A stretch of DNA of 64,000 bases, taken from contig JABDBI010000001.1 of the NCBI GenBank assembly GCA_013288705.1, positions 1 to 64,000 on the forward strand, in the 5' to 3' direction. The notes under the pieces were generated by a model, which made no database searches, was not told the DNA's origin, and worked only from the letters and a program-made list of their open reading frames with translations. Each line of letters begins with the position of its first letter. Position 1 is the stretch's first letter. The position numbers were made by a program, and so were the translations under genes. The DNA comes from Methanobacteriota archaeon. Lineage in GTDB: Bacteria; Myxococcota; UBA727; JABDBI01. Shown in pieces: positions 3,469-41,458 of this stretch.

Positions 3469-4288
3469 AGGACCCGAGGTCGAAACGATTCGCCGTACGC
3501 TTGAGCCGCAGCTCCTCGGGCGCTCCCTGCATGAGCCATGGACGAGCGGGCTCAAGCTGCGCAGCAATCAGAATGAAGGGGCACTCAAAGCGCTTGAGCA
3601 CAAACCGATCAAAGCACTCGGTCGTCGAGGCAAACTCATGTGGATAGACTTTGCTGGCGATATGAGTTTGCTCGTGCGACTCGGAATGACCGGGCGCCTA
3701 TATGTGAAAAATCGCGCTGAACCTACAGAATCACACACACATTTTAGAGCGCATTTAGATCGCGGGGAACTCGAGTTGCGCTTTGTGGATCCTCGACGCT
3801 TTGGCGATTTGCAGGTTGTCGATGCAGCAAGAAAGCAACATGAGATAAACCGAATTGGGCCAGATCCTCTGAGCTGGAAAGAAGAAGAGAAGTTAGCGCT
3901 TGTAGCACGCGTACGGGCAAGTGATCGCACTATCAAAGACATCTTGCTTGACCAATCTGTGCTCGCTGGTGTGGGTAATATTTATGCATCGGAAAGCTTA
4001 TTTGCTGCACGCATTCACCCACAAGCGCGCGGGTGCCAACTATCGAAGCCACGCATTGGCAAGCTGCTGGAACATACTGCAGCGGTGCTCGAGCTTGCGG
4101 TTCGCCACAACGGCACGACGTTTTCCAACTATGTGGATGGGGCGGGGAAAAAAGGCGATAATCTTAATTTCGTGAACGTATTTCAGCGTACGGGCGAGCC
4201 TTGCTATGTATGCCAAAAACCTATAAGACGTGCGGTGCAATCGGGGAGAAGTACCTTTTACTGTATGAAATGCCAGAAATGCACCTAA
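3461..4288 (+). CDS. mutM: Formamidopyrimidine-DNA glycosylase MutM (Fpg)
   Basis: Bifunctional base-excision repair enzyme that removes 8-oxoguanine and formamidopyrimidines and then nicks the abasic site. The GTG at 3461 is chosen over an in-frame ATG at 3395 because the enzyme needs Pro as residue 2 (catalytic nucleophile): the protein then begins (M)[11 protein letters not shown], with Pro2 and Glu3 in place. Further seen: GRRGKL with the catalytic Lys, the helix-two-turn-helix region (AGVGNIYASE), and a C-terminal zinc finger with CYVC and CMKC pairs plus the GRSTFYC arginine loop. 275 residues, full length. It overlaps rsmA by 8 bases and the next gene by 10. Confidence 0.97.
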   Translation: MPEGPEVETIRRTLEPQLLGRSLHEPWTSGLKLRSNQNEGALKALEHKPIKALGRRGKLMWIDFAGDMSLLVRLGMTGRLYVKNRAEPTESHTHFRAHLDRGELELRFVDPRRFGDLQVVDAARKQHEINRIGPDPLSWKEEEKLALVARVRASDRTIKDILLDQSVLAGVGNIYASESLFAARIHPQARGCQLSKPRIGKLLEHTAAVLELAVRHNGTTFSNYVDGAGKKGDNLNFVNVFQRTGEPCYVCQKPIRRAVQSGRSTFYCMKCQKCT

Positions 4289-5235
4289 CTCTGAAACATG
4301 GGTTCATCTTTCTCCCAGTATTCACGCTTATGCTTTGCTCTTCCTGCGAACCCTGTTCCAGCGGCAGTGATGCAGAAATCGCTCAGTGCCTGCGAACAAC
4401 ACCCAAAGAGGACATCCAACAAGACCAGGAAGTCAGAAGCTACCTATCTCGCCACAAGGTTTACATTTCGCTCACCACATCCCCCACGCGCATTTCTAAG
4501 ATTTTGCCCGTATTGCAGGCACTTGATACCGAATATGTAGAGAACATCTTTTTGGCCTTGCCGGATAGATATCGTAATTCTGAAAACTATGTGATTCCAG
4601 CCGAGCTGGACCAATTTCCTAAGCTCAAGATCCTTCGCACACCTACCGACCTAGGTCCGATCATGAAACTCTTGCCTGCTGTTCTTGCAGTGAAAAGTGA
4701 TCCTGATGCAATTGTGTTAACCGTCGATGATGACACCGGCTATCCTTTCGGCATGGTAGGGCAACTCATCAAAGCAACAATCAAACAGGGGGCCGCTTCA
4801 ACAACACTGGGAACCAACATCGACCTTTGGGGAATTGATCGCTATGGGCGATGGCCTGAGAAGATTCCTGCGCTTCCAGACTGCTACAGCGGCGCAGAGA
4901 TTTCATTTTGCGATGTCGTTCAAGGCTATGCGGCGGCTGCCTATAAAACGAGATGGATCGATGCGAAGCTCATGGTGCAGCTGGGCGAACTCGATATCAG
5001 CTGTAAGATGTCAGACGATCTTGTCATCAGCTTTGCGCTCGCGTTGCAACACATTCCAAGGGTGTCTGTCTTTAACAAATTTGCCTCTCACCCAATTGGA
5101 TTTTCCTATAATTCTGGTGCTGACGCGCTGCATTTAGGATCCGGTTCCCAGAGGACATCAAGCGCTTCAAGTACCAATGCACCGCGCTATCAGAAGTGCA
5201 TTGAAATTATGCACAATTGGACTATAAGCAATTGA
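4279..5235 (+). CDS. Exported GT-A glycosyltransferase-like lipoprotein, paralogue 1
   Basis: Unnamed protein of 318 residues, first of three tandem paralogues. ATG 4279 overlaps the mutM stop by 10 bases and gives a hydrophobic signal ending LCSSC, a plausible though imperfect lipobox. After it come a Cys-rich stretch and CLRTTPKED, then a GT-A-like core: ISLTTSPTRI, NIFLALPDRYR, FPKLKI, LGPIMKLLPA and a DxD-type acidic triad VDDDTGYP (Asp150-152). The SLTTSPTRI...VDDD arrangement resembles uncharacterised bacterial glycosyltransferases; that fold assignment is inference. Donor sugar and acceptor are unknown. An exported glycosyltransferase would lack cytosolic nucleotide-sugar, which makes the predicted location odd. 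Closest relative in the window is paralogue 3. Confidence 0.8.
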   Translation: MHLTLKHGFIFLPVFTLMLCSSCEPCSSGSDAEIAQCLRTTPKEDIQQDQEVRSYLSRHKVYISLTTSPTRISKILPVLQALDTEYVENIFLALPDRYRNSENYVIPAELDQFPKLKILRTPTDLGPIMKLLPAVLAVKSDPDAIVLTVDDDTGYPFGMVGQLIKATIKQGAASTTLGTNIDLWGIDRYGRWPEKIPALPDCYSGAEISFCDVVQGYAAAAYKTRWIDAKLMVQLGELDISCKMSDDLVISFALALQHIPRVSVFNKFASHPIGFSYNSGADALHLGSGSQRTSSASSTNAPRYQKCIEIMHNWTISN

Positions 5236-6168
5236 ATGCGTTCTATTGCTATTTCTATCATTTTATCTATGGGAACCGCCTGTCAGATTTGCACACTTCC
5301 AACAGTGGAAGAGACTTTGACATGCCTGCGTGAGCAGCCCAAAGAAGATGTGAAAGAAAAATATGCTGAAGCACGAAAACACATCGACAACCACAAAACG
5401 TATTTCTCTCTCACAACTTCGCCAAAAAGAATTAGAGACAAAGGGTTTCTGCTGGTATTAGAGACACTTCAGTCCGAATATATCGACAGTATTTTGCTTT
5501 TTCTGCCTGAAAAATACAAGGACCGTGAGCCCTATGTCATCCCTGATCAGGTCAGGAACTTCCCCAAACTTCAAATTATCCAGGAAGGCAAAGACTGGGG
5601 GCCAATTATGAAAATTTTGCCTGCACTTGAACGGTTTCAAAATGATCCTGACGCCATCATTATTGCTGTCGACGATGACACTGGCTACAGCGCGGGAATG
5701 GCGGGGCAACTCATAAAATCGGTGGCGATGCATGACACCGTAGTCGGTAACTTCGGACATAACCTGGGGCACTGGGGAGCGAGACAGCAATTTTGGCCAG
5801 ACCCATCGGAACGCACCTCAGCTTGCGAAAATGGCGAGGAAAATCTCTGCGATATTCTCGAAGGATTTGGTGGCGTCGCTTATAAGGCGAAGTTCTTTGA
5901 TGTGAACCGCTTGAAAGAGCTTTCACAATTGAGCCTCGCTTGCAAAACTTCTGATGATTATGTGATCCACCACGCCTTGGCAGAAAAAAATGTGCCACGC
6001 CGAAGGATCCAAAATACTTACATTCCAGGCGTACACCAATTTTACTTTGGATTTAAGTCAGACGCTCTTCACCAAGGAGCCGGCTATCGAGGTCACGCGT
6101 TCACAAACAAGCAAAGGTATCGAGCCTGCCAGCGGGATATCCAGAGAAAGAAGGATAGCGCGAAGTGA
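5236..6168 (+). CDS. Exported GT-A glycosyltransferase-like protein, paralogue 2
   Basis: 310 residues. The ATG follows directly on the stop of paralogue 1. The short hydrophobic N-terminus ends GTACQIC, so it is probably exported and perhaps lipidated at Cys16. It shares the paralogues' CLREQPKED block, FSLTTSPKRI, GPIMKILPA and the acidic triad VDDDTGYS (Asp146-148), followed by CDILEGFGGVAYKA and the late KTSDDYVIHHALA motif. It is clearly more divergent than paralogues 1 and 3 are from each other. The last bases form a GTGA overlap with paralogue 3. Function is inferred only from the GT-A-like motif order; no substrate can be proposed. Confidence 0.78.
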   Translation: MRSIAISIILSMGTACQICTLPTVEETLTCLREQPKEDVKEKYAEARKHIDNHKTYFSLTTSPKRIRDKGFLLVLETLQSEYIDSILLFLPEKYKDREPYVIPDQVRNFPKLQIIQEGKDWGPIMKILPALERFQNDPDAIIIAVDDDTGYSAGMAGQLIKSVAMHDTVVGNFGHNLGHWGARQQFWPDPSERTSACENGEENLCDILEGFGGVAYKAKFFDVNRLKELSQLSLACKTSDDYVIHHALAEKNVPRRRIQNTYIPGVHQFYFGFKSDALHQGAGYRGHAFTNKQRYRACQRDIQRKKDSAK

Positions 6169-7136
6169 AGACGCAATTCTTCTCTCTTTGTTTTTTAGCT
6201 TTGGTGCTGGTCACGTGTGCGTCCTGCGAGCCCTGTGCGGGCAATAGCGATGAAGATACAGTGCTGTGTCTTCGGGGACTTCCGAAAGAAGACATTTTGC
6301 AGGATCAAGCTATAAAGCAATACCTATCCAAGCATAGGGTTTATGTTTCTTTATCGACTTCACCGACTCGTATTTCTAAGCTTTTGCCCGTCTTACAAAC
6401 AGTGGATACAGAGTATGTGGAAAATATTCTACTAGCGCTGCCTCAGAGATACCGCAATAAAGAAGACGGACAGTATGTCATCCCACCGGAGATAGCGAAT
6501 TTCCCCAAACTTAAAATCATTCGCAGAGATCAAGACTTAGGTCCAATCATGAAGCTAATTCCTGCTGTTGAAGAAGTGAAAGCAAGTGATCCTGAGGCAA
6601 TTGTCATCACGATCGACGACGATACAGGGTATCCAGCCGGTGTCTTCGGTCAGCTTATCAAGGCAGCCATTAAGCAGGAGACAGTATCCGCCGCAATTGC
6701 AAGAAACCTAGATATATCGGGTTTGGATAGGTACCAACTGATGCCCTCCAAAACTCTGCTGTCCAAGCCGGAATGCTATAGCGGACATGAGATTTCATAT
6801 TGTGACCTAGTGTTTGGCTACGCAGGGGTCGCCTACAAAGCAAAATGGGTAAACACTGACTTACTCACGACACTATCAACCTTGGATCCGAGTTGCAGAA
6901 CATCTGATGATCTCGTCATCAGCTTTGGGCTGGCTTTGCAAAATATTCCGCGCGTGTCTGTGTCAAATCAATATACGCCTCTTCCAACTCAGTTCGCTTT
7001 TGGATTTAGAGCGGATGCATTGCAGCGAGGATCTGGATCACTGCAAGTGGCAAGTAATTCGGATGTCACGTCCTTGCGATATCGGACATGCGCAAAAATT
7101 ATGCATGAATGGGTTCAGAAAAATATCTTGTTTTAA
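6165..7136 (+). CDS. Exported GT-A glycosyltransferase-like lipoprotein, paralogue 3
   Basis: 323 residues, starting at a GTG that overlaps the stop of paralogue 2 by 4 bases. The signal peptide ends VTCASC, followed by EPC as in paralogue 1. Conserved blocks: CLRGLPKEDI, VYVSLSTSPTRIS, NILLALPQRYRN, LGPIMKLIPA, the IDDDTGYP triad (Asp151-153), CYSGHEISYCD and RTSDDLVISFGLALQNIPRVSV, the last nearly identical to paralogue 1. Cys residues around positions 200-215 and in the late CRTSDD segment are shared, which would suit disulphides outside the cytoplasm (inference). Same tandem operon; same uncertainty over substrate. Confidence 0.8.
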   Translation: MKTQFFSLCFLALVLVTCASCEPCAGNSDEDTVLCLRGLPKEDILQDQAIKQYLSKHRVYVSLSTSPTRISKLLPVLQTVDTEYVENILLALPQRYRNKEDGQYVIPPEIANFPKLKIIRRDQDLGPIMKLIPAVEEVKASDPEAIVITIDDDTGYPAGVFGQLIKAAIKQETVSAAIARNLDISGLDRYQLMPSKTLLSKPECYSGHEISYCDLVFGYAGVAYKAKWVNTDLLTTLSTLDPSCRTSDDLVISFGLALQNIPRVSVSNQYTPLPTQFAFGFRADALQRGSGSLQVASNSDVTSLRYRTCAKIMHEWVQKNILF

Positions 7137-7151
7137 TTGGAGAATTATTTC

Positions 7152-7715
7152 GTGAAAGTAGTTTTATTTATATTGATAGGCTTTGGAATTGTGCATCACG
7201 TAAATGCTCTGCCAGTTCGACCAGGCGCTGATTTTCTGAGACCCGGAACAATGTCGCTCGCCGGTGCAGTGAAGGCTCCACTCTCCTTCGACACGATGGG
7301 CCATACGTCTCTGGGTCTCGAGTTCACCCCGGAGTGGAGTTATTTTCCGCTGCGCGGTTTTGAATTTTCCATCGGATTATTGCTGGCTGGCGGCATTGCA
7401 GCAGAACCGATCGAATATCAACAATACGGGCCTTTGCGATGGGGCGCAAAATTTGGCACACGTTACTATTTTGACGTTGGTCAAATTTTCTTTCCCTTTG
7501 TTGGTGTGAGCTTCGGAGCAGACATCGTTAGTAATTTTGTTCAGAGCTTTCACTTTTGGGTAGAAATCCCCGCAGGGCTCCTCATAATGCTCAATGAACA
7601 TGTGGGCCTTCAGGTTGGCGCACCGTTAAAAATAAATGTAGTTCCCCCGCTGCGTCTCGGGGTCGGCCGATTTGAATGGACACCCGGCTATCTTGGCGTG
7701 CAAGCCTTTTTTTAA
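7152..7715 (+). CDS. Small outer-membrane beta-barrel protein A
   Basis: 187 residues. The GTG at 7152 is preferred over a TTG at 7137 because GGAG at 7139-7142 lies at normal spacing and the product then begins with a clean Sec signal (MKVVLFILIGFGIVHHVNA). The mature part alternates aromatic and small residues as in transmembrane beta-strands (LGLEFTPEWSYFP, KFGTRYYFDVGQIFFPFVGV) and ends with an aromatic terminal strand (YLGVQAFF), the usual outer-membrane assembly signal. It is a paralogue of the protein at 10404-10976: same strand order, the RWG...G.(R/N)YYFD motif, and VGxxxGxPLxI. Sits directly after the three glycosyltransferase-like genes. Confidence 0.7.
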   Translation: MKVVLFILIGFGIVHHVNALPVRPGADFLRPGTMSLAGAVKAPLSFDTMGHTSLGLEFTPEWSYFPLRGFEFSIGLLLAGGIAAEPIEYQQYGPLRWGAKFGTRYYFDVGQIFFPFVGVSFGADIVSNFVQSFHFWVEIPAGLLIMLNEHVGLQVGAPLKINVVPPLRLGVGRFEWTPGYLGVQAFF

Positions 7716-7733
7716 ATCGTGGGTATTGGCAAT

Positions 7734-8279
7734 ATGAATATTCGAACTCTTTTCTTTGTGCTCATCTCAACCATTGGTTGGGCAGAAAAAGCCTTGCCGG
7801 ATAGAGCACATGCAATATCTGTTGACGTCGCGGCTATTCCCTTTGGTGAGCTCAGCCTAATATATCAACACAAAACAATGCCATTCTTAAACTTGGTATT
7901 TCCTCTAGATATCCAATCTCTGTCCGTCTTTTTGCTGCCCCAAGAAGTCATCACCGTACAAAGAACCACGTTTGGTTTTGGTATTCTGCCTGACCTCACA
8001 GTGGCAAGCGGCATCGGGGTTAAGCTGCACTATTCCGGTTGGTATGTGGAGCCACTTCTTGGTCTTGGCTATGCGCGAATCGATTATCCATCTCGATATG
8101 GCACGCGGCATTTACTGATGATCAAACCTGCCTTGTTGCTTGGATATCACACGACATTTCCCTTCGGCATGTATCTCGATGTTGGGATTGGACTTGCGGG
8201 AAGAATCTTTATCCCCACTGCTGATGCGAACGCGCTTATTCAGCCAAATGGACGAATCGCGGTGGGCTATGCTTGGTAA
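7734..8279 (+). CDS. Predicted secreted beta-barrel-like protein B
   Basis: 181 residues from ATG 7734 (a GTG at 7719 is in frame but gives a poorer signal). Begins MNIRTLFFVLISTIGWAE, a signal peptide, with predicted cleavage around AHA at 31-33. The rest is rich in alternating hydrophobic strands (LNLVFPLDIQSLSVFLL, GWYVEPLLGLGYARI, GMYLDVGIGLAGRIFI) and ends in GRIAVGYAW, with a terminal aromatic as in outer-membrane barrels. It is not obviously similar to proteins A and C. Its stop is overlapped by 11 bases by the PLOD-like gene. Function unknown; presumed outer-membrane partner of the exported enzymes around it. Confidence 0.62.
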   Translation: MNIRTLFFVLISTIGWAEKALPDRAHAISVDVAAIPFGELSLIYQHKTMPFLNLVFPLDIQSLSVFLLPQEVITVQRTTFGFGILPDLTVASGIGVKLHYSGWYVEPLLGLGYARIDYPSRYGTRHLLMIKPALLLGYHTTFPFGMYLDVGIGLAGRIFIPTADANALIQPNGRIAVGYAW

Positions 8280-9423
8280 TCTTTTAGCCTGTTGTCTAGC
8301 AATCCTTTGCACCGGTATGAGTTGCTTCTCGATGCCGCAGGAGTGTCGCGGACCGGGAAAGACGCGCACCGTCGATCTTCATGCGGGAGATCCAAATAGT
8401 GAACTCGCGGTCGTCAGCATTGATACAACACCTGGCCCAGCGTCACAAATGTATGAAGCAACTCTCAATCATTTTGGCTATGAACATTACTTGCTGGGTT
8501 CAACAAAGGAAAAACCACAGCCACCGTCGAACGGTGTATTTAGATTGGCATTCTGGCACTACCGGTACCAAAGATATTTGGAGACTGTTCAACAAATTGC
8601 CAAAACGAATCCGCGAAAAATCATTATCCTGTCGGATGCCAATGATGTTCTCTTTGCTGCTCCACCAGCAGAACTGATCCAGAAATTCAAACAGACGGGC
8701 AAAGAGATAATTTTGACTGGCCATATGAGCTGCTGCAACGTTCGCCTCTACGAATATGTCAGGGAAGAGGCTAAGAGTTTACATTTTGAAGAAAGTGACC
8801 TTTTTAGCACAGACCCCAAAATCAAAGATTCAATTGGTCTCTTGCAATTTCTTCTCGCGGTACAAGGAAGAAAATATGGCGATAGCGATGGGCCTCTCTA
8901 TCTTTGGACTCCCGCTGCGCAGCGCGAGATGAAACTCATTAAGGCGATCCCCATGGTGACAAAATACCGCTACGTCAATGCAGGCGGAGTTATGGGATAT
9001 GCCAACAGTTTGGCAAAGGCAATGACTGAGCTTAACATGCAGCCCTTCGATGACGATGAGGAACAATGGACACTCTGGTACGCCGGAGCAAATGGCGGTT
9101 ATCATTCTCAAAGGGCCTTGCTCGACTATCAAAGAGACATGTTCGCACTTGTCGATGACTTCGTTGAAGGTGAAACCGATAAACTCCGTGTACTCTTTGA
9201 TGATCAACCAGAATTACCCACAGGGAAATTTTTCAACTTTACGCTTGATGCACAAAAGAACCGGTGGAAAACAGAATTTGGAACCTACCCGGTAATTTTC
9301 CATTGTGCTGGCTGCAACGTGTCTTCAGAAAAAATGCGCATATTTCATGAACGCATCTTACGTGTCATGGATGCTCAGAGTTTTCTTTCACCTGCGCTCT
9401 TTCAATATGTTGGAAAATGCTAG
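8269..9423 (+). CDS. Exported PLOD/collagen-type glycosyltransferase domain protein
   Basis: 384 residues from ATG 8269, overlapping the preceding gene by 11 bases. Hydrophobic, Cys-containing N-terminus (LLACCLAILCTGMSC) suggests export and possible lipidation. The mature protein reproduces, in order, the landmarks of the glycosyltransferase domain of animal procollagen lysyl hydroxylases (PLOD): LSDANDVLF (Asp123, Asp126), a PPAELIQKFKQTG helix, YVNAGGVMGYA, the acidic FDDDEEQWTLWY block (Asp261-263), LLDYQRDMF and a final VIFHCAGCN matching the metal-binding VVHGNG. No lysyl hydroxylase domain is attached. Established: in PLOD this domain transfers glucose or galactose to hydroxylysine-linked sites. 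The acceptor here is unknown. Ends flush with the convergent gene at 9424. Confidence 0.75.
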   Translation: MLGNLLACCLAILCTGMSCFSMPQECRGPGKTRTVDLHAGDPNSELAVVSIDTTPGPASQMYEATLNHFGYEHYLLGSTKEKPQPPSNGVFRLAFWHYRYQRYLETVQQIAKTNPRKIIILSDANDVLFAAPPAELIQKFKQTGKEIILTGHMSCCNVRLYEYVREEAKSLHFEESDLFSTDPKIKDSIGLLQFLLAVQGRKYGDSDGPLYLWTPAAQREMKLIKAIPMVTKYRYVNAGGVMGYANSLAKAMTELNMQPFDDDEEQWTLWYAGANGGYHSQRALLDYQRDMFALVDDFVEGETDKLRVLFDDQPELPTGKFFNFTLDAQKNRWKTEFGTYPVIFHCAGCNVSSEKMRIFHERILRVMDAQSFLSPALFQYVGKC

Positions 9424-10404
9424 CTAGCGACACTCCTGAATGGCCGTCTGATTGTTCTCATAGCTATCGCCACCTTTCTCTTTAAAACAATCTGTCAGCG
9501 CCTTGATCGCTTTATGCTTCTGATCAGCGATCGCAAAGTGCTCAATAAAATCTCCAGGCTCCCACACCACATCCTCCCCATACGCAAAAAGGGTAATCAT
9601 TCCACTTCCCGGGTAAAACGCTGTCAAATGCCGTTGCGGTAGTATGATTGCTTCCTTCGCAACAAGAGAGGGGTCGTAATATTTCTGCTCCACAGGTGTA
9701 TAGCTCAGCTCCCCCCGCCCATCCTTGCCTATAAAACCAAAGATGTAGTCTTGAAGCGCCTCTTGCTCTGGCTGATTGTGGTTTCTGTAATAGGCGTAGC
9801 TCCGTGCAACCGTTGCCAACATTTCTCTCGACCATGGATCATTCTTTAATAGAAAAATACCCGCGTTGATCTTCATGTAGGGCTCTCTCGATACCAAAAA
9901 TGATTTACCGGGGTGCTTCGCGGTTATCTCCTCAAGCGGGATTGTGAAATTGGTGAAAAGCGCATCTGCATCCACCCACATCACCCAGCCATAGCGACGT
10001 TTTTCTGGGTCATGGCTGCGCGCATCGCGCTCCTCGAAAGCAGCCTGAACGGCGAATATTTTTTGCCAATAAAGGCCCAGTTGAAACACCTTGCTGGACG
10101 CGAACCTGTCAATAAACTGCTCGGTTAATAGGTTGTTGCGCAAGATATAATCATAGCCAAATTTTCTGGCATATCGCTGATGGACATCCTTCGCCAAGTC
10201 CAAATATTTCACATCCAATGTGGAATGGCTCACGATGGCGATGCATGGCTTGCTGGCATCACCCGGGTTGCACTGAATAATTTGATCGCTCAGTCGTTGA
10301 CTTAGATCTTCTGTAACGCGCTCAAATTGCTCTGGCTCACAGCCAAGCAATAGTGCGGCCATGGCCAATGGACACAACCAAAATCCTACAGTATCAGTAC
10401 GCAA
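9424..10404 (-). CDS. GT34-like (galactosyl/mannosyltransferase) lipoprotein
   Basis: 326 residues. The N-terminus has a textbook lipobox (ALLLGC, Cys22), so it should be an exported lipoprotein. The core resembles GT34 (GMA12/MNN10) enzymes: CIAIVSHS, ARKFGYDYIL, a KIFAV helix, WVDADALF (Asp145, Asp147; the DxD metal and nucleotide-sugar site), KINAGIFLLKNDPW and EQEALQDY, then a late FYPGSGMITLF. Family assignment is from motif order. The TTG start at 10404 is chosen because later starts leave too few residues before Cys22; it abuts the divergent ATG at 10404, leaving no intergenic space. Third glycosyltransferase type in the same block. Confidence 0.72.
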   Translation of the reverse strand: MRTDTVGFWLCPLAMAALLLGCEPEQFERVTEDLSQRLSDQIIQCNPGDASKPCIAIVSHSTLDVKYLDLAKDVHQRYARKFGYDYILRNNLLTEQFIDRFASSKVFQLGLYWQKIFAVQAAFEERDARSHDPEKRRYGWVMWVDADALFTNFTIPLEEITAKHPGKSFLVSREPYMKINAGIFLLKNDPWSREMLATVARSYAYYRNHNQPEQEALQDYIFGFIGKDGRGELSYTPVEQKYYDPSLVAKEAIILPQRHLTAFYPGSGMITLFAYGEDVVWEPGDFIEHFAIADQKHKAIKALTDCFKEKGGDSYENNQTAIQECR

Positions 10405-10976
10405 TGTTTTATCCCTATTTCACTCTCAAATTTCGGCAGCATCTCTTATTGGCGCTATTGTCTTTGAGCGCCCAAAAAATCAATGCAGACCCTACACCAT
10501 TTTTGTCCAAGGGCAAAATGCATGTAGGTGGGTTTCTCTCTTTTCCTTTTGAATACGATAATACAAGGACGTTTTCACTCGGCCTTCGACTTGAGCCCGA
10601 ATATGGCTATTTTGTCATAAACCAGCTTGAGATCGTTGGTGCGGGGTTTGCGCAGACGCAAATTTACCGCTCCGATGAACCACCGGGGCGGGCCAAATTT
10701 GTGCGCTGGGGCGGGCAGGTTGGGGCGAACTACTACTTTGACCTGCACAGCTCTTTTTTCCCATACACCGGCCTTCACTTCGGCGTTCATGTCAACAATT
10801 TGGATGCTCAAACCGGGCAGTGGTTTTTTGAAGTTCCCGTTGGGGCACTCTTTTTGATCAACGATCGTGTTGGCATTCGAGCCGGTTTTCCTCTACAACT
10901 GATCTTTTGGACCAACTCTATTTTTCACAAAATCACCGCGGGCCCTGTGTTTTTGGGTGTTATGGTCTTCTTCTAG
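10404..10976 (+). CDS. Small outer-membrane beta-barrel protein C
   Basis: 190 residues from ATG 10404 (MFYPYFTLKF...), with a signal peptide ending near INADP. Paralogue of protein A at 7152-7715: both have FL..G.M...G, a long FSLGL(R/E)xxPE(Y/W)xYF strand pair, RWGxxxGxxYYFD, (F/P)F(P/V)xxGxxFG, an E(V/I)PxGxLxxxNxxVGxxxGxPL block and a final LGVxxFF. The C-terminal Phe-Phe is the expected barrel-assembly signal. It lies between the divergent GT34-like lipoprotein and dnaE and closes the accessory block. Function unknown; outer-membrane location is inference from strand pattern and C-terminus. Confidence 0.7.
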   Translation: MFYPYFTLKFRQHLLLALLSLSAQKINADPTPFLSKGKMHVGGFLSFPFEYDNTRTFSLGLRLEPEYGYFVINQLEIVGAGFAQTQIYRSDEPPGRAKFVRWGGQVGANYYFDLHSSFFPYTGLHFGVHVNNLDAQTGQWFFEVPVGALFLINDRVGIRAGFPLQLIFWTNSIFHKITAGPVFLGVMVFF

Positions 10977-19771: not shown

Positions 19772-21550
19772 ATGCCCCGGGTTAAGCTATTGAAAAATAA
19801 TACTTATACCTACCTACTGATAGGGCTCGTTGCCCTCTTGAGCGCATGTGATCAGTGCGGTGTGGCGTATTGGCAGCCGCAGCTAACCAATGTCACAATG
19901 TCTCCTGCTCAGGCACAGGTTGAAGACAATTCACCTCTTCGCTTTACCGTTGAGCACCAACGTTCCCGCACAGGGGATCCCTCCCTTGTGATTAACCTCC
20001 GCTATAAAATGTCTCAGCGGTTTTCCAACGGTTATATCGATTTTCCTCAGCATATTGCACCTGCACGAATTGAAGAAATTGAACTTCTGACACCCGGGAC
20101 ACGGCTTCTTGATACGAAGGACGGGCAGGTCAAAGAAATCCAGCATGGGGGACATCACGATGTGCATTTGCGTTATCGCATCGTTTTAGCAAACAACGAA
20201 CAGGACGTTCGCTCTCGCACGCCGGTGATTCGCGGAAACTATGTGCAAGCAGCAGCCAAGACAATACTCGCTTTCCCGCAATCCATTGGTACAAAAAGAC
20301 TTGCCAGGATTGAATGGAGTGCACCGAGCGGCTGGCAGATCTTTTCAAGCTTTGGCGAATATACGGCTTCCCACATTGAGCAGAATGCGCAAACAATTTG
20401 GGAGGCGCTTTTTGTTGCCGGCGAGAACTTACGTGTCCACAAAACCTTCGCCAATAGCGACAAGCTAGAAAATAGGCGCGCACTTACTGTCGTCGTCAAT
20501 GGCAATTTTCGTTTTCAAGATGATGCGTTTATCGCGATCGTCACCCGCATCATTTCTTCTCAGCGAGATTTTTTCCAAGATTATGCCTACCCGAACTATC
20601 TCATCAGCCTGTCGGAGAGTGGGCGGCGTGGAGCAAAAATTGGTGGCACCGCTCATCACAACGCCTTCAAAGTGCTTCTGCACACAGACACGCCTCTGTC
20701 TAACGGTGAGACGGCCCACCTTTTGAGCCACGAAGTTTTTCACAACTGGAATGGGTTTGTCATCAAGAAGGCACCAAAATGGTTTCGCGAAGGTTTTACC
20801 GATTATTATGGATTAACGCTCGCTTTTCGCGCGGGCTTGATTCCACGCAAGAAATATGTCGAGATTTTCAACAAGTGGCTTTGGACATATTACGCGTCGC
20901 CTCTACGCAATGAGCTCTCCAATAGAATGGAAGATATGGTCGATGACGATGATGAGCTCTTCGATATCCCCTATCAGCGTGGTGCAATTTTTGCCGCTAG
21001 GCTCAATGCACAAATTCGCGAGAAATCGAACGCACGACATTCTCTCGACAATATAATGCGGGATCTTGTTCAGGCTGCAAGAACCGGAGACAGTGCGGTA
21101 ACAATTGAGAAAATCAATGCGCTCGCTAAACTGTACGGCAGCGGTGGCGACATCGCGCAAGAAATGGCACAATTGATGGATGATGGCAGAGATTTCACGC
21201 CACACGGGCAAGAACTCGGTGAATGCTACACATTGGATCCTGAGCGCGTTGGTACTGACTTCGAGCTTGGATTTGCTCTTCATCCTAATAGCGGCGTTGT
21301 TACCGGCGTAAAGCGCCAGAGCGCGGCTGCGCAAGCGGGCCTGCGCCCTAGCGATGTTCTCTCTCGCTATGAATTCGCCCAGGGGGCTCCCCATTTAAAA
21401 GCAACTGTCGAGCTCGCATTTAACCGACGCCGGATTTCTTTCTTTCCCGTCAAGCTTGAGACGACGAGAGATGGCTTTCAGTTTTCTGAGAACGCGGCGC
21501 ATTGGCAGAACAAGCCAGATTTCTGTGAGCAGTCACTTATAGTTTGGTAG
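19772..21550 (+). CDS. M61 family (glycyl aminopeptidase-like) lipoprotein peptidase
   Basis: 592 residues. Lipoprotein signal with lipobox LLSAC. M61 architecture: N-terminal beta-sandwich (to about 250), a zinc-metallopeptidase domain with HEVFHNWNG near residue 320 (HExxH, two zinc ligands and catalytic Glu) and the third ligand in [11 protein letters not shown] about 20 residues on, and a C-terminal PDZ-like module ([24 protein letters not shown], about 505-530) as in other M61 peptidases. Active-site residues appear intact. Probably anchored in the envelope and acting on extracytoplasmic peptides. Downstream of the NHLP gene; its 3' end overlaps the convergent yyaL-like gene by 14 bases. 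Confidence 0.88.
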
Positions 21551-23381
21551 TCGAAAGAGGTGGTCGTTCACAGGCAGCGCCCTCACAAACATATGCCATT
21601 GGCTTCGTGAGCATAAAATGCACAGCGATAAGCATATTGGAAAAAGCTTGCGGATAACGTGTCAGCCCATCGCTAAATGCTTCGATGGTGCTGCACGCGC
21701 GCTGCCGATACGTGTCCTGGTCACTCAGGCCAGACAAGCGAAGCAAATTGAGGGCGTGCACAGAATTACCCGACGGTTCAGCTCCATCCTGCGATGGCTT
21801 TTCCCGCACCAGCAGTTTCTCATGGGCATCGCTCGTCATAAAAAAGCCACCAGCCTCTTCGTCTTCAAAACGCGCGCGCAAAATATCATCAAGCTCTACA
21901 GCCCGCTTGAGCCAGACCATCTCTTTCGTTGCCTCATAGAGATCAATTAAGCCTGCGCACAAAAATGCATAGTCGTCGAGAAAACCCAATGACCCTGTTT
22001 TTCCATCTTTGCGACTATGAAAGAGAACGCCTTCTTTGAAACAATTTTGCCAAATCCAATCAGCTGTATCCCTTGCAATTTGCACAAATTCCGGCCGCTT
22101 CAAAACAAGCCCAGCCTTCGCAAAAGCAGAGATCGTTAGGCCGTTCCACGAGGTCATAATCTTCTCATCACGATGAGGTTGCGGCCGCTTGTTGCGTGCT
22201 AGAAGCAAAATCGACCTTGCACGGTCAATCTTCTCGCTTGGCAGGGAAAGAGGAGCTGTTAGGTGCAAAATATTGCGCCCCTCAAAACTGCCCTCTTCGG
22301 TCACACCAAAATGTGCTTTGACGATTTGCGCGTCTTGACCAAGAATGTCTTCCAATTCTTTTGGCGTCCACGTGAAATAATACCCTTCGTCGAGATGGTC
22401 ATCTGGGGTCAAGCTGTCGGCATCCGTTGCGGCATAAAAACCGCCAGATGGAGCCATCATGTCACGCTGCAGATATTGCAGGATGTCTGTCGCTACAAAC
22501 GCGAATTCGGCAAGACCTGTAGCCTGATATCCCTCCACGTAAGCGATGGCTTGCAACGCATTATCGTAGAGCATCTTTTCAAAATGTGGGATCTGCCATT
22601 GTGCATCGGTGGCGTAGCGATGAAAGCCGCCGGCAAGTTGATCGTAAATACCACCTTCTGCCATTTTCTGCAGCGTATGGGTCGCCATGGCAAGCAGCTG
22701 CTTGTCTTCCACACAAAGCAACGTTCGAATGGGTAAGCTGCTGGGAAATTTCGGTGCACCAGAAATGCCGCCCGAGATTGGATCGTAGTGATTTTTGTAA
22801 TGTTGCAATGCGCTAGCGAGAGCCTGCGGGTAATCAAGCTCTCCTTTCGTCGTGGTTGATTTGCTCGCTTGCACTGCTTTCACAAGCTGCGCTGATGCTC
22901 GAGCAATTCGCGATGGATCCTCATCGTACATCTCTTTCAAGTCTTTTAGCAAAGACAGGAAGCCTTTTCCTGCACCACGATCGCCATTCCTGGCAGGAAA
23001 ATACGTGCCACCAAAAAACGGCTTTTTGTCGGGGTCTAGCCATACCGACATCGGCCAACCGCCAGCACCGGTGATCAGTTGCACAGCAGTCATATAAGTT
23101 GCGTCGATATCTGGCCGTTCCTCGCGATCAACTTTGATAGAAATAAAGTGATCATTCAAATAGCGCGCGATCTCCTCATCTTCAAACGACTCGTGCGCCA
23201 TCACATGGCACCAATGACAAGTGGAGTAACCGATGCTCAAAAAAATGGGCCGATTATGCTTTTTCGCTTCAGCAAAAGCCTCTTCGCCCCAGGGAAACCA
23301 ATCCACTGGATTGTGTGCGTGCTGGACAAGATATGGGCTGGTCTCATGAATCAATCGATTGGTGTGCGTCTTCGTTGTCAT
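21537..23381 (-). CDS. YyaL/Spermatogenesis-associated protein 20-type thioredoxin-like protein
   Basis: 614 residues. N-terminal thioredoxin-like domain (DUF255): [39 protein letters not shown] with the CxxC, and GGWPMSVWL with FFGGTYFP. The remaining 400 residues form an (alpha/alpha)6 barrel like N-acylglucosamine 2-epimerase ([16 protein letters not shown]-type motif, [10 protein letters not shown]). The family is widespread; its reaction is unproven. ATG 23381 is chosen because the family begins a few residues before NRLI; an ATG at 23447 would add an unrelated leader. Shares 14 bases with the convergent M61 gene. Confidence 0.9.
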
Positions 23382-23461
23382 AGCGAGCGAGATACCGCAC
23401 TTGCCCGAAACAGAAAAGCACTTTATGATGCATTTTTTATTTTCCAATTCATGGCTAGTTT

Positions 23462-38810: not shown

Positions 38811-40211
38811 GTGCAAGTTCTCCATCGGCAAGTCATACTTATCTTGCGTGTATGCCTCTCCATTGGCTGCTTCTTGCTTGGCTGCGCAACGCACGATCAA
38901 CGCGATCCACCGCCCGTTGACACGCCCTATTATCCGGGTGCAATCAATCAGCTCAATAATCAACTGATTGTCGTCTCGCGTAACGGCAACGATCGGTTCT
39001 CAAACGGTAACGTTCTTTTCGTCGACCTCAACCAGGTTGATCGTAGCCTGCAAAAGTTCCCCGCAACGACTGATGTCATGTTGCGGCAAGTCATAGGCCC
39101 TGGCCTCGTCACAGGCTCGGTGCTGAGCCCAACATTAGGCATTGCACCTGCGCTCTCTTCTGACCAGGCACTCTTCGTGCTCGGGGGAGAAAAAAATCAG
39201 CTCGTTAAAATTCCTCTGGCAAACGGGAATCCGAACTGCGCCCCAAACCCAATAGGCAATCCCCTACTTGGACAGCAGTGTCTTGCTCCGAATTCGGTTC
39301 TACAACTCAATGCAACTAATCCTTTTTTCCTTATACTGACCTCGGGCGTGTCCAACTTGAGCAACCAAGACAGCGGACTCATCGCCTTCAAATTCAGCCC
39401 TGAATACCGCGCACGGCAGCCGGGCAAAGAAGACGCCTATGCTGGTGAGCTGCAAACTTTTATTTGGCCTAAATCCCAAACTGCCCCTCCACAGGTGGTA
39501 AACACATACTCACTTGCCAGACTTGTTCGAAACACTGACCAAAACAGTATCGTCGACAAAGTTCTAGTGAGCGACCTCAAGATTTCTAACAACTACGTCT
39601 TTGCTGCTTTTCAAACCGCGAAGGCAATAGATCCAGCGATATCAACCGCCGATCCCTATGCCTTTATTGTGTGGTTTCCGTTATCGGAACTGCAAAATCC
39701 AAGCGGAATCGATTCTACAAAAGTGAGATTTCTCAATCTCACATTAACCTACGGCGCAAAATTTGTCGCTGGCCTTGACGTGGTGAATGCTGGCAACGGC
39801 CTGATCAAGCTGATAGCCATTACCCAAGCGCCCAATGGCATTTTGCAGGTGCACATTCCTTCGCTCGGCGGCAACGGGCAAGCCTTTGTCTACCAAAGTC
39901 AAAGCACATGTGCAGACCCCGTCGACGTTCGACTCCTACCTGGTAGCTCGCGTATCTTTGTCGCTTGCTTCGACGGCAGAGGAAAGATAGCCGAGTATGC
40001 GCTCGATACTTTGATGCAGACAAGAGAACACACTGGCTTTGGTCGAGGCCCTTTCCAAATGTGGTTTGATACGCGGCCTGGCACATCTAGACTCTATGTG
40101 AGCTATTACCTCGAAGGAACGGTCGGCGTATTTGATGTCTCGCCAAGATTGTCTCCGCTCGGGCGCATTTTCCAAACTTCTGCGCCGAATCAGGAAGGTG
40201 GCCAAGGATGA
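38811..40211 (+). CDS. Propeller-like lipoprotein 1
   Basis: 466 residues from GTG 38811 (AAGGA upstream); an ATG at 38760 without such a site would extend it. Lipobox FLLGC. The mature protein is a run of short beta-strands with repeats such as LIVVSRNGNDRF, QALFVLGGEKNQLVKIPL, RIFVACFDGRGKIAEYAL and RLYVSYYLEGTVGVFDVS, the spacing of YVTN/beta-propeller surface proteins. No enzyme motif is visible. Probably an outer-membrane or periplasmic binding protein. Overlaps the next lipoprotein by ATGA. Confidence 0.65.
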   Translation: MQVLHRQVILILRVCLSIGCFLLGCATHDQRDPPPVDTPYYPGAINQLNNQLIVVSRNGNDRFSNGNVLFVDLNQVDRSLQKFPATTDVMLRQVIGPGLVTGSVLSPTLGIAPALSSDQALFVLGGEKNQLVKIPLANGNPNCAPNPIGNPLLGQQCLAPNSVLQLNATNPFFLILTSGVSNLSNQDSGLIAFKFSPEYRARQPGKEDAYAGELQTFIWPKSQTAPPQVVNTYSLARLVRNTDQNSIVDKVLVSDLKISNNYVFAAFQTAKAIDPAISTADPYAFIVWFPLSELQNPSGIDSTKVRFLNLTLTYGAKFVAGLDVVNAGNGLIKLIAITQAPNGILQVHIPSLGGNGQAFVYQSQSTCADPVDVRLLPGSSRIFVACFDGRGKIAEYALDTLMQTREHTGFGRGPFQMWFDTRPGTSRLYVSYYLEGTVGVFDVSPRLSPLGRIFQTSAPNQEGGQG

Positions 40212-41458
40212 TAATGCTGCGTCAAATCGTGTTCTGTTGCAGCACCGCCGCATTGCTCGGATCGAGCTGTGGGCAGAACCAAACTCTTTCTGGCTCGATC
40301 AATCAAATCAAGGATGCGGTCCTGGTGGACTGTCATACATACCCCATACCAAATCGTCCGCTAACGGAGAGCGACAAGCACACCTGTTTGGTGTATGCCG
40401 ATTCTACCGCACAGCAGCTCGGCGTATTTGATGTGTCGATAGCACAATTTGTGCTGAACTCGAGCGGCTATAGTGGTCTTGCGGGTCAAGTGGGTGAACA
40501 AACATCCCGACTTGCAGCCAAATCCAGCGTAAGTCCTTTTGTCTATGCACTTGATGTAGCTGAAAATAAAATTTTTGCGACCCGTACGCTCATTGATATC
40601 AACATCAATCAAACCTCTTTTGGTACGCCAACCGCCATTGATCTGGCGGCAGGCCAGATCCCCCTGGACATTGCGGTCATGGGCAACTCGCCTTTTGTGG
40701 CTCTCATCGCGAGCACAACCGGCCTGCAGGTAATAGAAATTGAACCCACTACCGGTCAACCTAAACAGTTAAGCACACTCAATAAGCAGTTTGCAGTGGG
40801 CCCGTTGTCTACCATTGCCGTGGATCCTGATGAGAATTTCGTTTTGCTGGCCCAGCAAGGAAGCACACAAATCCGAGTTCTCAGCACTTCCCAGATTCTG
40901 CAACCTTCTAGCACAATGTCATTGGACTCAGGCTTCACCGTCGACAACATCGAGAGTCCAATCAGAAAGATGGCCATTGGGACACTCAATGGCCAAGCGG
41001 TTGCAGTGATCCTGCGTGATTCCTTGAATGCAGATTTGCGCAAAATCGATCTAAGCGCAAAAAGTGCGCCGCTGCTTGCGACCCTGACTTTTAGTGCTCA
41101 GCCAAAAACTGTCTATTTCCCCAAAGACTCGCCCGCGATGGTAAACAACAGCACATCATGGCTCGCGGTCGTTACGGAAATAGGCACACTGGAATATACA
41201 TCTCTTGCCACCGTACAATTCAGTGGGCCCGTCACAACTATCGCAACGGCTACAACTGCCACCTTGTCCGCTGACAGCGACATACCAATCTACACCACAG
41301 AAGAGGTTTTGCTATCCAGCGCAATCGCTGGGGGTCAGATCAGGCAATCAAGCAGCACCTGCGGCACCCGCCTAGTATTGCTCGCATTTGGAACGGGCAT
41401 GCTCGCCAGTATCTGTGAAGGAAACATAAAGCTCACCATCTATAACAACTACAATTGA
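40208..41458 (+). CDS. Propeller-like lipoprotein 2
   Basis: 416 residues from ATG 40208 (ATGA overlap; a second ATG at 40214 is also possible). Lipobox LLGSSC. Like its neighbour it is built of short strands (DSTAQQLGVFDVSIAQF; VYALDVAENKIFATR; FVALIASTTGLQVIEIEP; FVLLAQQGSTQIRVL) and shares the GVFDVS motif with it, so the two probably have related propeller folds and may act as a pair. Overall sequence similarity looks low. Function unknown. Confidence 0.65.
   Translation: MIMLRQIVFCCSTAALLGSSCGQNQTLSGSINQIKDAVLVDCHTYPIPNRPLTESDKHTCLVYADSTAQQLGVFDVSIAQFVLNSSGYSGLAGQVGEQTSRLAAKSSVSPFVYALDVAENKIFATRTLIDININQTSFGTPTAIDLAAGQIPLDIAVMGNSPFVALIASTTGLQVIEIEPTTGQPKQLSTLNKQFAVGPLSTIAVDPDENFVLLAQQGSTQIRVLSTSQILQPSSTMSLDSGFTVDNIESPIRKMAIGTLNGQAVAVILRDSLNADLRKIDLSAKSAPLLATLTFSAQPKTVYFPKDSPAMVNNSTSWLAVVTEIGTLEYTSLATVQFSGPVTTIATATTATLSADSDIPIYTTEEVLLSSAIAGGQIRQSSSTCGTRLVLLAFGTGMLASICEGNIKLTIYNNYN

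Follow-up and report, generated by a model that had tools for sequence, protein, structure and literature searches.

Eight genes at positions 4279-10976 of the first 64,000 nucleotides of contig JABDBI010000001.1 (assembly GCA_013288705.1, GTDB lineage Myxococcota; UBA727; JABDBI01), a stretch hereafter called the window, encode five predicted lipoproteins of glycosyltransferase type together with three small exported barrel-like proteins. Enzymes that use nucleotide sugars are thought to be kept in the bacterial cytoplasm, where their donors are. In the explanation that we favour, at slightly less than an even chance, the block would be a cassette for envelope glycosylation peculiar to this lineage, whose exported nucleotide-dependent enzymes would make or alter glycans of the envelope and be fed by host nucleotides and nucleotide sugars. 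Each single enzyme family is already known; no description of the exported combination was found in the open-licence literature.

Predicted lipoprotein glycosyltransferases between mutM and dnaE

All eight genes were confirmed at the positions given by a preceding sequence-only reading, between mutM, which ends at 4288, and dnaE, both of which were identified by reading only. The three paralogues with a DDD motif come first, followed by two barrel-like proteins, a PLOD-like, a GT34-like and a third barrel-like protein:

4279..5235, plus strand: DDD GT-A paralogue 1 (DDD1), predicted lipoprotein, start overlapping the end of mutM
5236..6168, plus strand: DDD GT-A paralogue 2 (DDD2), predicted lipoprotein
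6165..7136, plus strand: DDD GT-A paralogue 3 (DDD3), predicted lipoprotein, modelled GT-A fold
7137..7715, plus strand: small exported barrel-like protein 1, 35% identical to barrel-like protein 3
7719..8279, plus strand: small exported barrel-like protein 2, whose homologue in a related genome (G004) forms the barrel portion of an exported fusion of cytidylyltransferase type
8248 or 8269 (ATG)..9423, plus strand: PLOD-type glycosyltransferase, predicted lipoprotein, beginning within the end of the barrel 2 gene
9424..10404, minus strand: GT34-type glycosyltransferase, predicted lipoprotein, convergent to the PLOD-type gene
10404..10976, plus strand (longest open reading frame 10353-10976, likely start ATG 10404): small exported barrel-like protein 3, Pfam OMP_b-brl match below cut-off

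Neighbouring genes on the plus strand overlap or lie a few bases apart, so that 4279-9423 may constitute one operon. The G+C content of the block is 46-48%, as against about 50-53% in its flanks.

The DDD paralogues have no Pfam match above cut-off, DDD1 and DDD2 being respectively 58% and 43% identical to DDD3. Structure prediction had been proposed as a check on all five enzymes; it was carried out on DDD3 and yielded a GT-A fold (mean predicted local distance difference test score, pLDDT, 81.7). When this model was compared by Foldseek to the Protein Data Bank (PDB), KfiA was the best match (E 1.6e-7, TM-score 0.48 by query length), ahead of GalNAc-transferases, heparosan synthase and, lower, EXTL2, and some nucleotidyltransferases of similar fold were also listed. 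Heparosan synthase and KfiA were likewise found by weak profile matches. The residues DDD 151-153 and SDD 247-249 are invariant in all 12 aligned DDD proteins. The modelled fold of DDD3 and the acidic motif support the assignment of these paralogues to the GT-A nucleotide-sugar transferase type, and the fold likens DDD3 to KfiA, heparosan synthase and EXTL2-type enzymes. The paralogues differ from KfiA, which acts in the cytoplasm, in having a lipoprotein-type start and conserved cysteines: Cys 244 and Cys 309 are present in 11 of the 12 aligned proteins, both being missing in the signal-less relative L026, and Cys 204 and Cys 213 are either both present or both lacking in 10 of the 12. This pattern is compatible with predicted disulfides in an oxidising compartment.

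In a library of viral structure models, the top match of DDD3 was nameless and the named ones that came next were Bandra megavirus, a pithovirus, Sylvanvirus, Yasminevirus and Chrysochromulina ericina virus, phages appearing only further down, from rank 11. A viral connection was considered and set aside: the DDD alignment detected six loci in IMG/VR, and that of the PLOD-like proteins detected no relative there. The start of one of the six (L030) is hydrophobic but lacks a lipobox. On a 167-kb IMG/VR contig (L029:4065-5831), a 588-residue protein has a DDD relative as its C-terminal half (36% identity), in a neighbourhood of sugar-modification- and LicD-type-like genes, as judged by reading.

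The PLOD-like protein scores 52.2 bits against Pfam GT_PLOD (PF25342, cut-off 27) and matches LH3 in the PDB; its DxxD motif, the Asn before GG and its poly-Asp motif align with those of LH3. Residues D166, D169, N280, D305, D306 and H388 are invariant in all three PLOD-like proteins, the active-site His having been paired by reading only, outside the hidden Markov model alignment. According to a preprint (PMC11838735), mimivirus R699, whose structure was determined with Mn and uridine diphosphate (UDP), is a glucosyltransferase acting on collagen, and residues like these DxxD, Asn and poly-Asp kinds bind Mn and sugar in it. The likeness to PLOD, LH3 and R699 thus lies in the GT_PLOD match and the aligned acidic motifs, whereas the block protein is bacterial, a predicted lipoprotein, and devoid of a known collagen substrate and of a lysyl hydroxylase domain, for which no Pfam match was obtained at E up to 1.

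The GT34-like protein scores 44.3 bits against PF05637 (cut-off 23), with XXT5 as its best PDB match, and its DAD motif (D145, D147) is invariant in all three GT34-like proteins. It resembles in this the GT34 family of xyloglucan xylosyltransferases and MNN10 but is bacterial and a predicted lipoprotein; its paralogues in the genome family, L024 and L025, have hydrophobic starts with neither Cys nor lipobox. L025 (8932-9915, on contig C5) is a second GT34-type gene of the window's own genome. The three kinds of glycosyltransferase named by the sequence-only reading are therefore borne out, by Pfam matches and by the DDD3 fold. Its idea of an unusual donor, on the other hand, is not needed, these being nucleotide-sugar enzyme families with intact acidic motifs. 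The same motifs bear on the quite improbable alternative that the exported proteins have lost the ability to transfer sugars and act at the surface as lectins or adhesins: it would suit the divergence among the DDD paralogues and is opposed by the invariance of the acidic residues throughout the DDD, PLOD-like and GT34-like sets.

Export was assessed with a simple lipobox rule made for this analysis, an imperfect one that overlooks a lipoprotein-like start at 40208-41458. The rule picked out all five block enzymes, compared to 3 of the 57 other non-overlapping open reading frames (ORFs) of at least 100 residues in the window, in agreement with the five exported or lipidated enzymes claimed for this interval. 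Extended to related genomes, it picked out 17/20 glycosyltransferase and LicD enzymes versus 14/158 other ORFs of the same stretches, a comparison that leaves out the barrels and a fusion protein described below and whose Fisher value of 1e-12 is overstated, since the paralogues do not count as independent and part of the background ORFs are spurious. The misses were one GT90 protein (LSAGC, barred by the rule at position -3) and the GT34 paralogues L024 and L025. A lipobox was found in all 11 DDD enzymes of the genome family and in none of the three outside relatives tested (L026, L030 and L034, among seven outside loci). The N-termini are thus export-like and kept in relatives, which supports the prediction that the five block enzymes are lipoproteins, whose acylation and anchoring we infer. 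Of the two outcomes that the sequence-only reading named as refuting it, a structure prediction lacking any GT-A fold and N-termini that do not serve export, neither arose, and its interpretation is partly supported. It is very improbable that the hydrophobic N-termini are membrane anchors of enzymes facing the cytoplasm. Export is indeed predicted by rule only and L025 has a hydrophobic start without Cys, but the frequency of the lipobox in the family set, the conserved cysteines and the interleaved barrel-like proteins, which would require export, all argue for passage across the membrane. Elsewhere in the window, an M61-peptidase-like lipoprotein (19772-21550) adjoins a thioredoxin/DsbH-type protein (21537-23447, minus strand).

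The three small proteins have hydrophobic N-termini, lack Cys and end respectively in F, W and F, a C-terminal F or W being found in eight of nine barrel-like proteins. Only one of them has a Pfam barrel match, to OMP_b-brl, at 19.7 bits below a cut-off of 28.7. The earlier description of three interleaved secreted barrel-like proteins stands as to positions and hydrophobic N-termini; the outer-membrane barrel fold is likely, not proven.

Two other identities were rejected for the block. A defence system was discarded, PADLOC having no match for the five of eight block proteins tested, and so was a phage or plasmid origin, tblastn having no match for DDD3 in phages or plasmids or for the PLOD-like protein in plasmids. 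PHROG gave no match for five proteins, four of which are encoded in the block.

Variable versions of the cassette in one genome family

The DDD family was found in 6 of 58 genomes searched, five of the six belonging to the same family of eight genomes; GT34-like proteins occur in two and PLOD-like proteins in three of the 58, the window's own genome being included in each count. Among 195 genomes of the phylum, GT_PLOD is present in three, all of the window's family and again including its own, and GT90 in one. The proposed search for synteny in related genomes revealed cassettes of variable make-up in three of the seven other family genomes:

G007: DDD, barrel 2 homologue, PLOD-like, another barrel-like protein, convergent DDD
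G004: barrel-like protein, LicD lipoprotein, fusion, PLOD-like, barrel-like protein, convergent DDD
G002: two DDD, barrel-like protein, convergent DDD

The genes flanking the cassette differ among these relatives, none of which places it between mutM and dnaE within the stretches fetched; the lipoprotein-type starts are alike. A second locus of G002 contains a DDD lipoprotein among GT90 proteins (POGLUT2 match, 8.6e-24), two of which are predicted to be exported, with lipoprotein-type starts. These two resemble the POGLUT/Rumi protein O-glucosyltransferases of GT90 and differ from them in being bacterial and in their lipoprotein-type starts; GT90 was not found in the window's own genome. Between the GT90 and DDD genes lies that of a lipoprotein-like protein (L023:7840-8901) with no Pfam or NCBIfam match.

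The G004 fusion, whose gene directly follows the LicD gene, combines a signal-like start, a CTP_transf_like domain (1.2e-14) and, C-terminal to it, a barrel 2 domain that is 67% identical to the G007 protein. The best PDB match of the cytidylyltransferase-type domain is ethanolamine-phosphate cytidylyltransferase (1.2e-23). The structure model of the fusion is of low confidence (mean pLDDT 46.3), with eight strands in the barrel part (block means 48-85). An exported enzyme of cytidylyl- or adenylyltransferase type would need extracytoplasmic nucleotides, and this is the strongest single hint, though from one genome. The side-by-side arrangement recalls phosphocholine decoration of the Lic type; in the known Lic system both enzymes act in the cytoplasm, whereas both G004 enzymes have export-type starts and are of uncertain specificity. 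In the open-licence literature, we found no description of such an exported set, namely PLOD, GT34, GT90, LicD and GT-A enzymes of lipoprotein type accompanied by an exported domain of cytidylyltransferase type.

Marks of probable host dependence

The eight family genomes measure 0.3-1.8 Mb at 73-99% completeness, versus 2.0-9.4 Mb for the other 50 of the 58 searched. Full-strength translocases for adenosine triphosphate and diphosphate (ATP/ADP) were found in five of the eight, scoring 610-626 bits in G002, G004, G005 and G007 and occurring in G003 as two half-length pieces on different contigs (279.5 and 256.5 bits). Elsewhere among the 195 phylum genomes, the best score for their Pfam family, PF03219, is 83.6 bits. 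The mere presence of PF03219 was rejected as a family mark since 89 of the 195 genomes have it and only full-strength matches discriminate; an earlier control, in which 0 of 14 named genomes had the translocase, was too lenient for the same reason. Two of the translocases were scanned and matched the NCBIfam NTP/NDP exchange transporter TIGR00769 at about 590 bits, above its cut-off of 387. One can be aligned along its entire length with ADP,ATP carrier protein 1, a solved structure (PDB 9j3n, 530.7 bits). Many of the weak PF03219 matches fall within long open frames, possibly as parts of NTT-HEAT fusions such as those of PMC5381601, which terms NTT transporters plasma membrane-located.

Type III secretion genes are present in at least five of the eight genomes: G002, G005 and G006 each have an SctV match above cut-off and G004 has one to SctR, and the window's own genome contains a fragment that scores 166.8 for SctV against 91.3 for FlhA. 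Pieces of FHIPEP occur in G007. Judged from these sequences, the family looks host-dependent and bears marks of intracellular life, and the window's own species may dwell in a host as well. No description of an intracellular myxococcotal family with such translocases was found in the open-licence literature.

Several further features of these genomes were recorded. G001 (G001:C1) is a single contig of 311,743 bases in which two 20-kb stretches (L090 and L091) have 31% G+C, secA lies beside rsmA (as judged by reading) and there is a gene for ATP synthase beta; it looks like an obligate, organelle-like endosymbiont. AAA-ATPase-like proteins (PF09820) have a signal-like start just before the domain in 5 of 16 family copies (in G005, L022:16771-18876, which is also L086, together with L084 and L087; in G002, L062 and L067) versus 1 of 12 outside, the outside copy (L058) having a seemingly overlong frame; these counts cover 28 of 32 matches, two without locus, the fragment L076 and the below-cut-off L063 being left out. 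G005 alone has 15 PF09820 matches in 1.3 Mb. In the window's own genome, proteins of 787 and 509 residues (L088:8202-10565 and L088:10587-12116, G000:C30) have no NCBIfam match above cut-off, and their N-termini bear what we take to be a resemblance to double-glycine leaders.

Proposed host-supplied donors and the envelope as likely target

Since the genome family bears intracellular marks, ordinary donors may come from the host, which would resolve the paradox of enzymes with cytosolic donors residing outside the cytoplasm. According to the explanation that we favour, the glycosyltransferases would leave the cytoplasm through Sec and, as lipoproteins, be anchored either in the periplasm or on the outer membrane. 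Host nucleotides destined for inner-membrane translocases must first cross the outer membrane, and UDP-sugars and cytidine triphosphate (CTP), which are similar in size to ATP, may for that reason follow host ATP across it. Ordinary nucleotide sugars would then be available to the exported enzymes, whether in the periplasm or on the cell surface. Their most likely target would be the bacterium's own envelope, i.e. the co-encoded barrels or outer-membrane lipids, the barrels being candidate acceptors, partners or anchors, and the second choice would be host molecules acted on from the surface. Donor, acceptor, membrane side, acylation and location are what we infer. A bolder extension, which we hold as a rather doubtful possibility, makes the periplasm or surface a second nucleotide-using compartment, into which host nucleoside triphosphates and nucleotide sugars would enter and where glycosylation and phosphocholine-type decoration would be wholly extracytoplasmic, performed by often eukaryote-type exported enzymes (glycosyltransferases, cytidylyltransferase, LicD and perhaps the AAA-ATPase-like proteins).

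Several observations weigh against host feeding of an exported cassette. The export prediction depends on a home-made lipobox rule. The window's own genome (74% complete) has no full-strength translocase, only a 40-bit relative, and G006 and G001 have none at full strength either. PMC5381601 also reports NTT genes in free-living organisms, so that translocases do not prove intracellular life. The pairing of LicD and cytidylyltransferase is seen in G004 only, where the LicD match spans 39 residues, and the best NCBIfam match of the fusion domain, below cut-off, is an ATP-using heptose-phosphate adenylyltransferase domain, so that the domain may use either CTP or ATP. In G005, whose completeness is the highest (99%), there is a single DDD enzyme, and neither a PLOD-type nor a GT34-type match was found. 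Finally, galU-like genes occur in seven of the eight genomes, none above the curated cut-off and four of them strong (158-315 bits), so that the cytoplasm may make UDP-glucose itself. Own UDP-glucose synthesis was dismissed as a means of telling the readings apart, as it decides nothing.

This last point would equally suit periplasmic enzymes that use lipid-phosphate-linked sugars of cytoplasmic origin with no host input, an improbable arrangement in our view, though it mirrors the donor solution of known bacterial extracytoplasmic glycosyltransferases. Those are normally GT-C membrane proteins, whereas the block enzymes have acidic motifs and, in the one modelled, a GT-A fold. The solved PLOD relative R699 moreover binds UDP and Mn (PMC11838735), and lipid-linked donors would leave an enzyme of nucleotidyltransferase type with an export start unexplained.

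An unlikely but more serious contender retains host donors and changes the target: the lipoproteins would sit on the outer face of the outer membrane or be released, and would act as surface-bound effectors that use host UDP-sugars to glycosylate proteins or membranes of the host. PLOD and GT90/POGLUT, matched here, are families that eukaryotes use on proteins of the endoplasmic reticulum (ER); the repertoire differs between genomes in an effector-like manner, and among the viral structural matches of the DDD enzyme, the highest-ranking ones that have names come mostly from giant viruses. Glucosylating effectors such as Legionella Lgt use host UDP-glucose in the host cytosol and so share the proposed reliance on a host nucleotide sugar. 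They are, however, injected or secreted, whereas the block enzymes have Sec lipoprotein-type signals, which speak against direct type III secretion, and are encoded beside barrel-like proteins. Common eight-stranded barrels have both termini on the periplasmic side, and the position of the cytidylyltransferase-type domain N-terminal to the barrel in G004 favours work in the periplasm.

The family is thus predicted to export several kinds of nucleotide-sugar enzyme, to which one genome adds a nucleotidyltransferase type. If the envelope cassette fed by the host is real, it would mean that a host-dwelling bacterium can perform nucleotide chemistry outside its own cytoplasm on host supply, and it would hint at how a bacterium can adopt enzymes of the kind found in the ER and Golgi, whose folding takes place under oxidising conditions.

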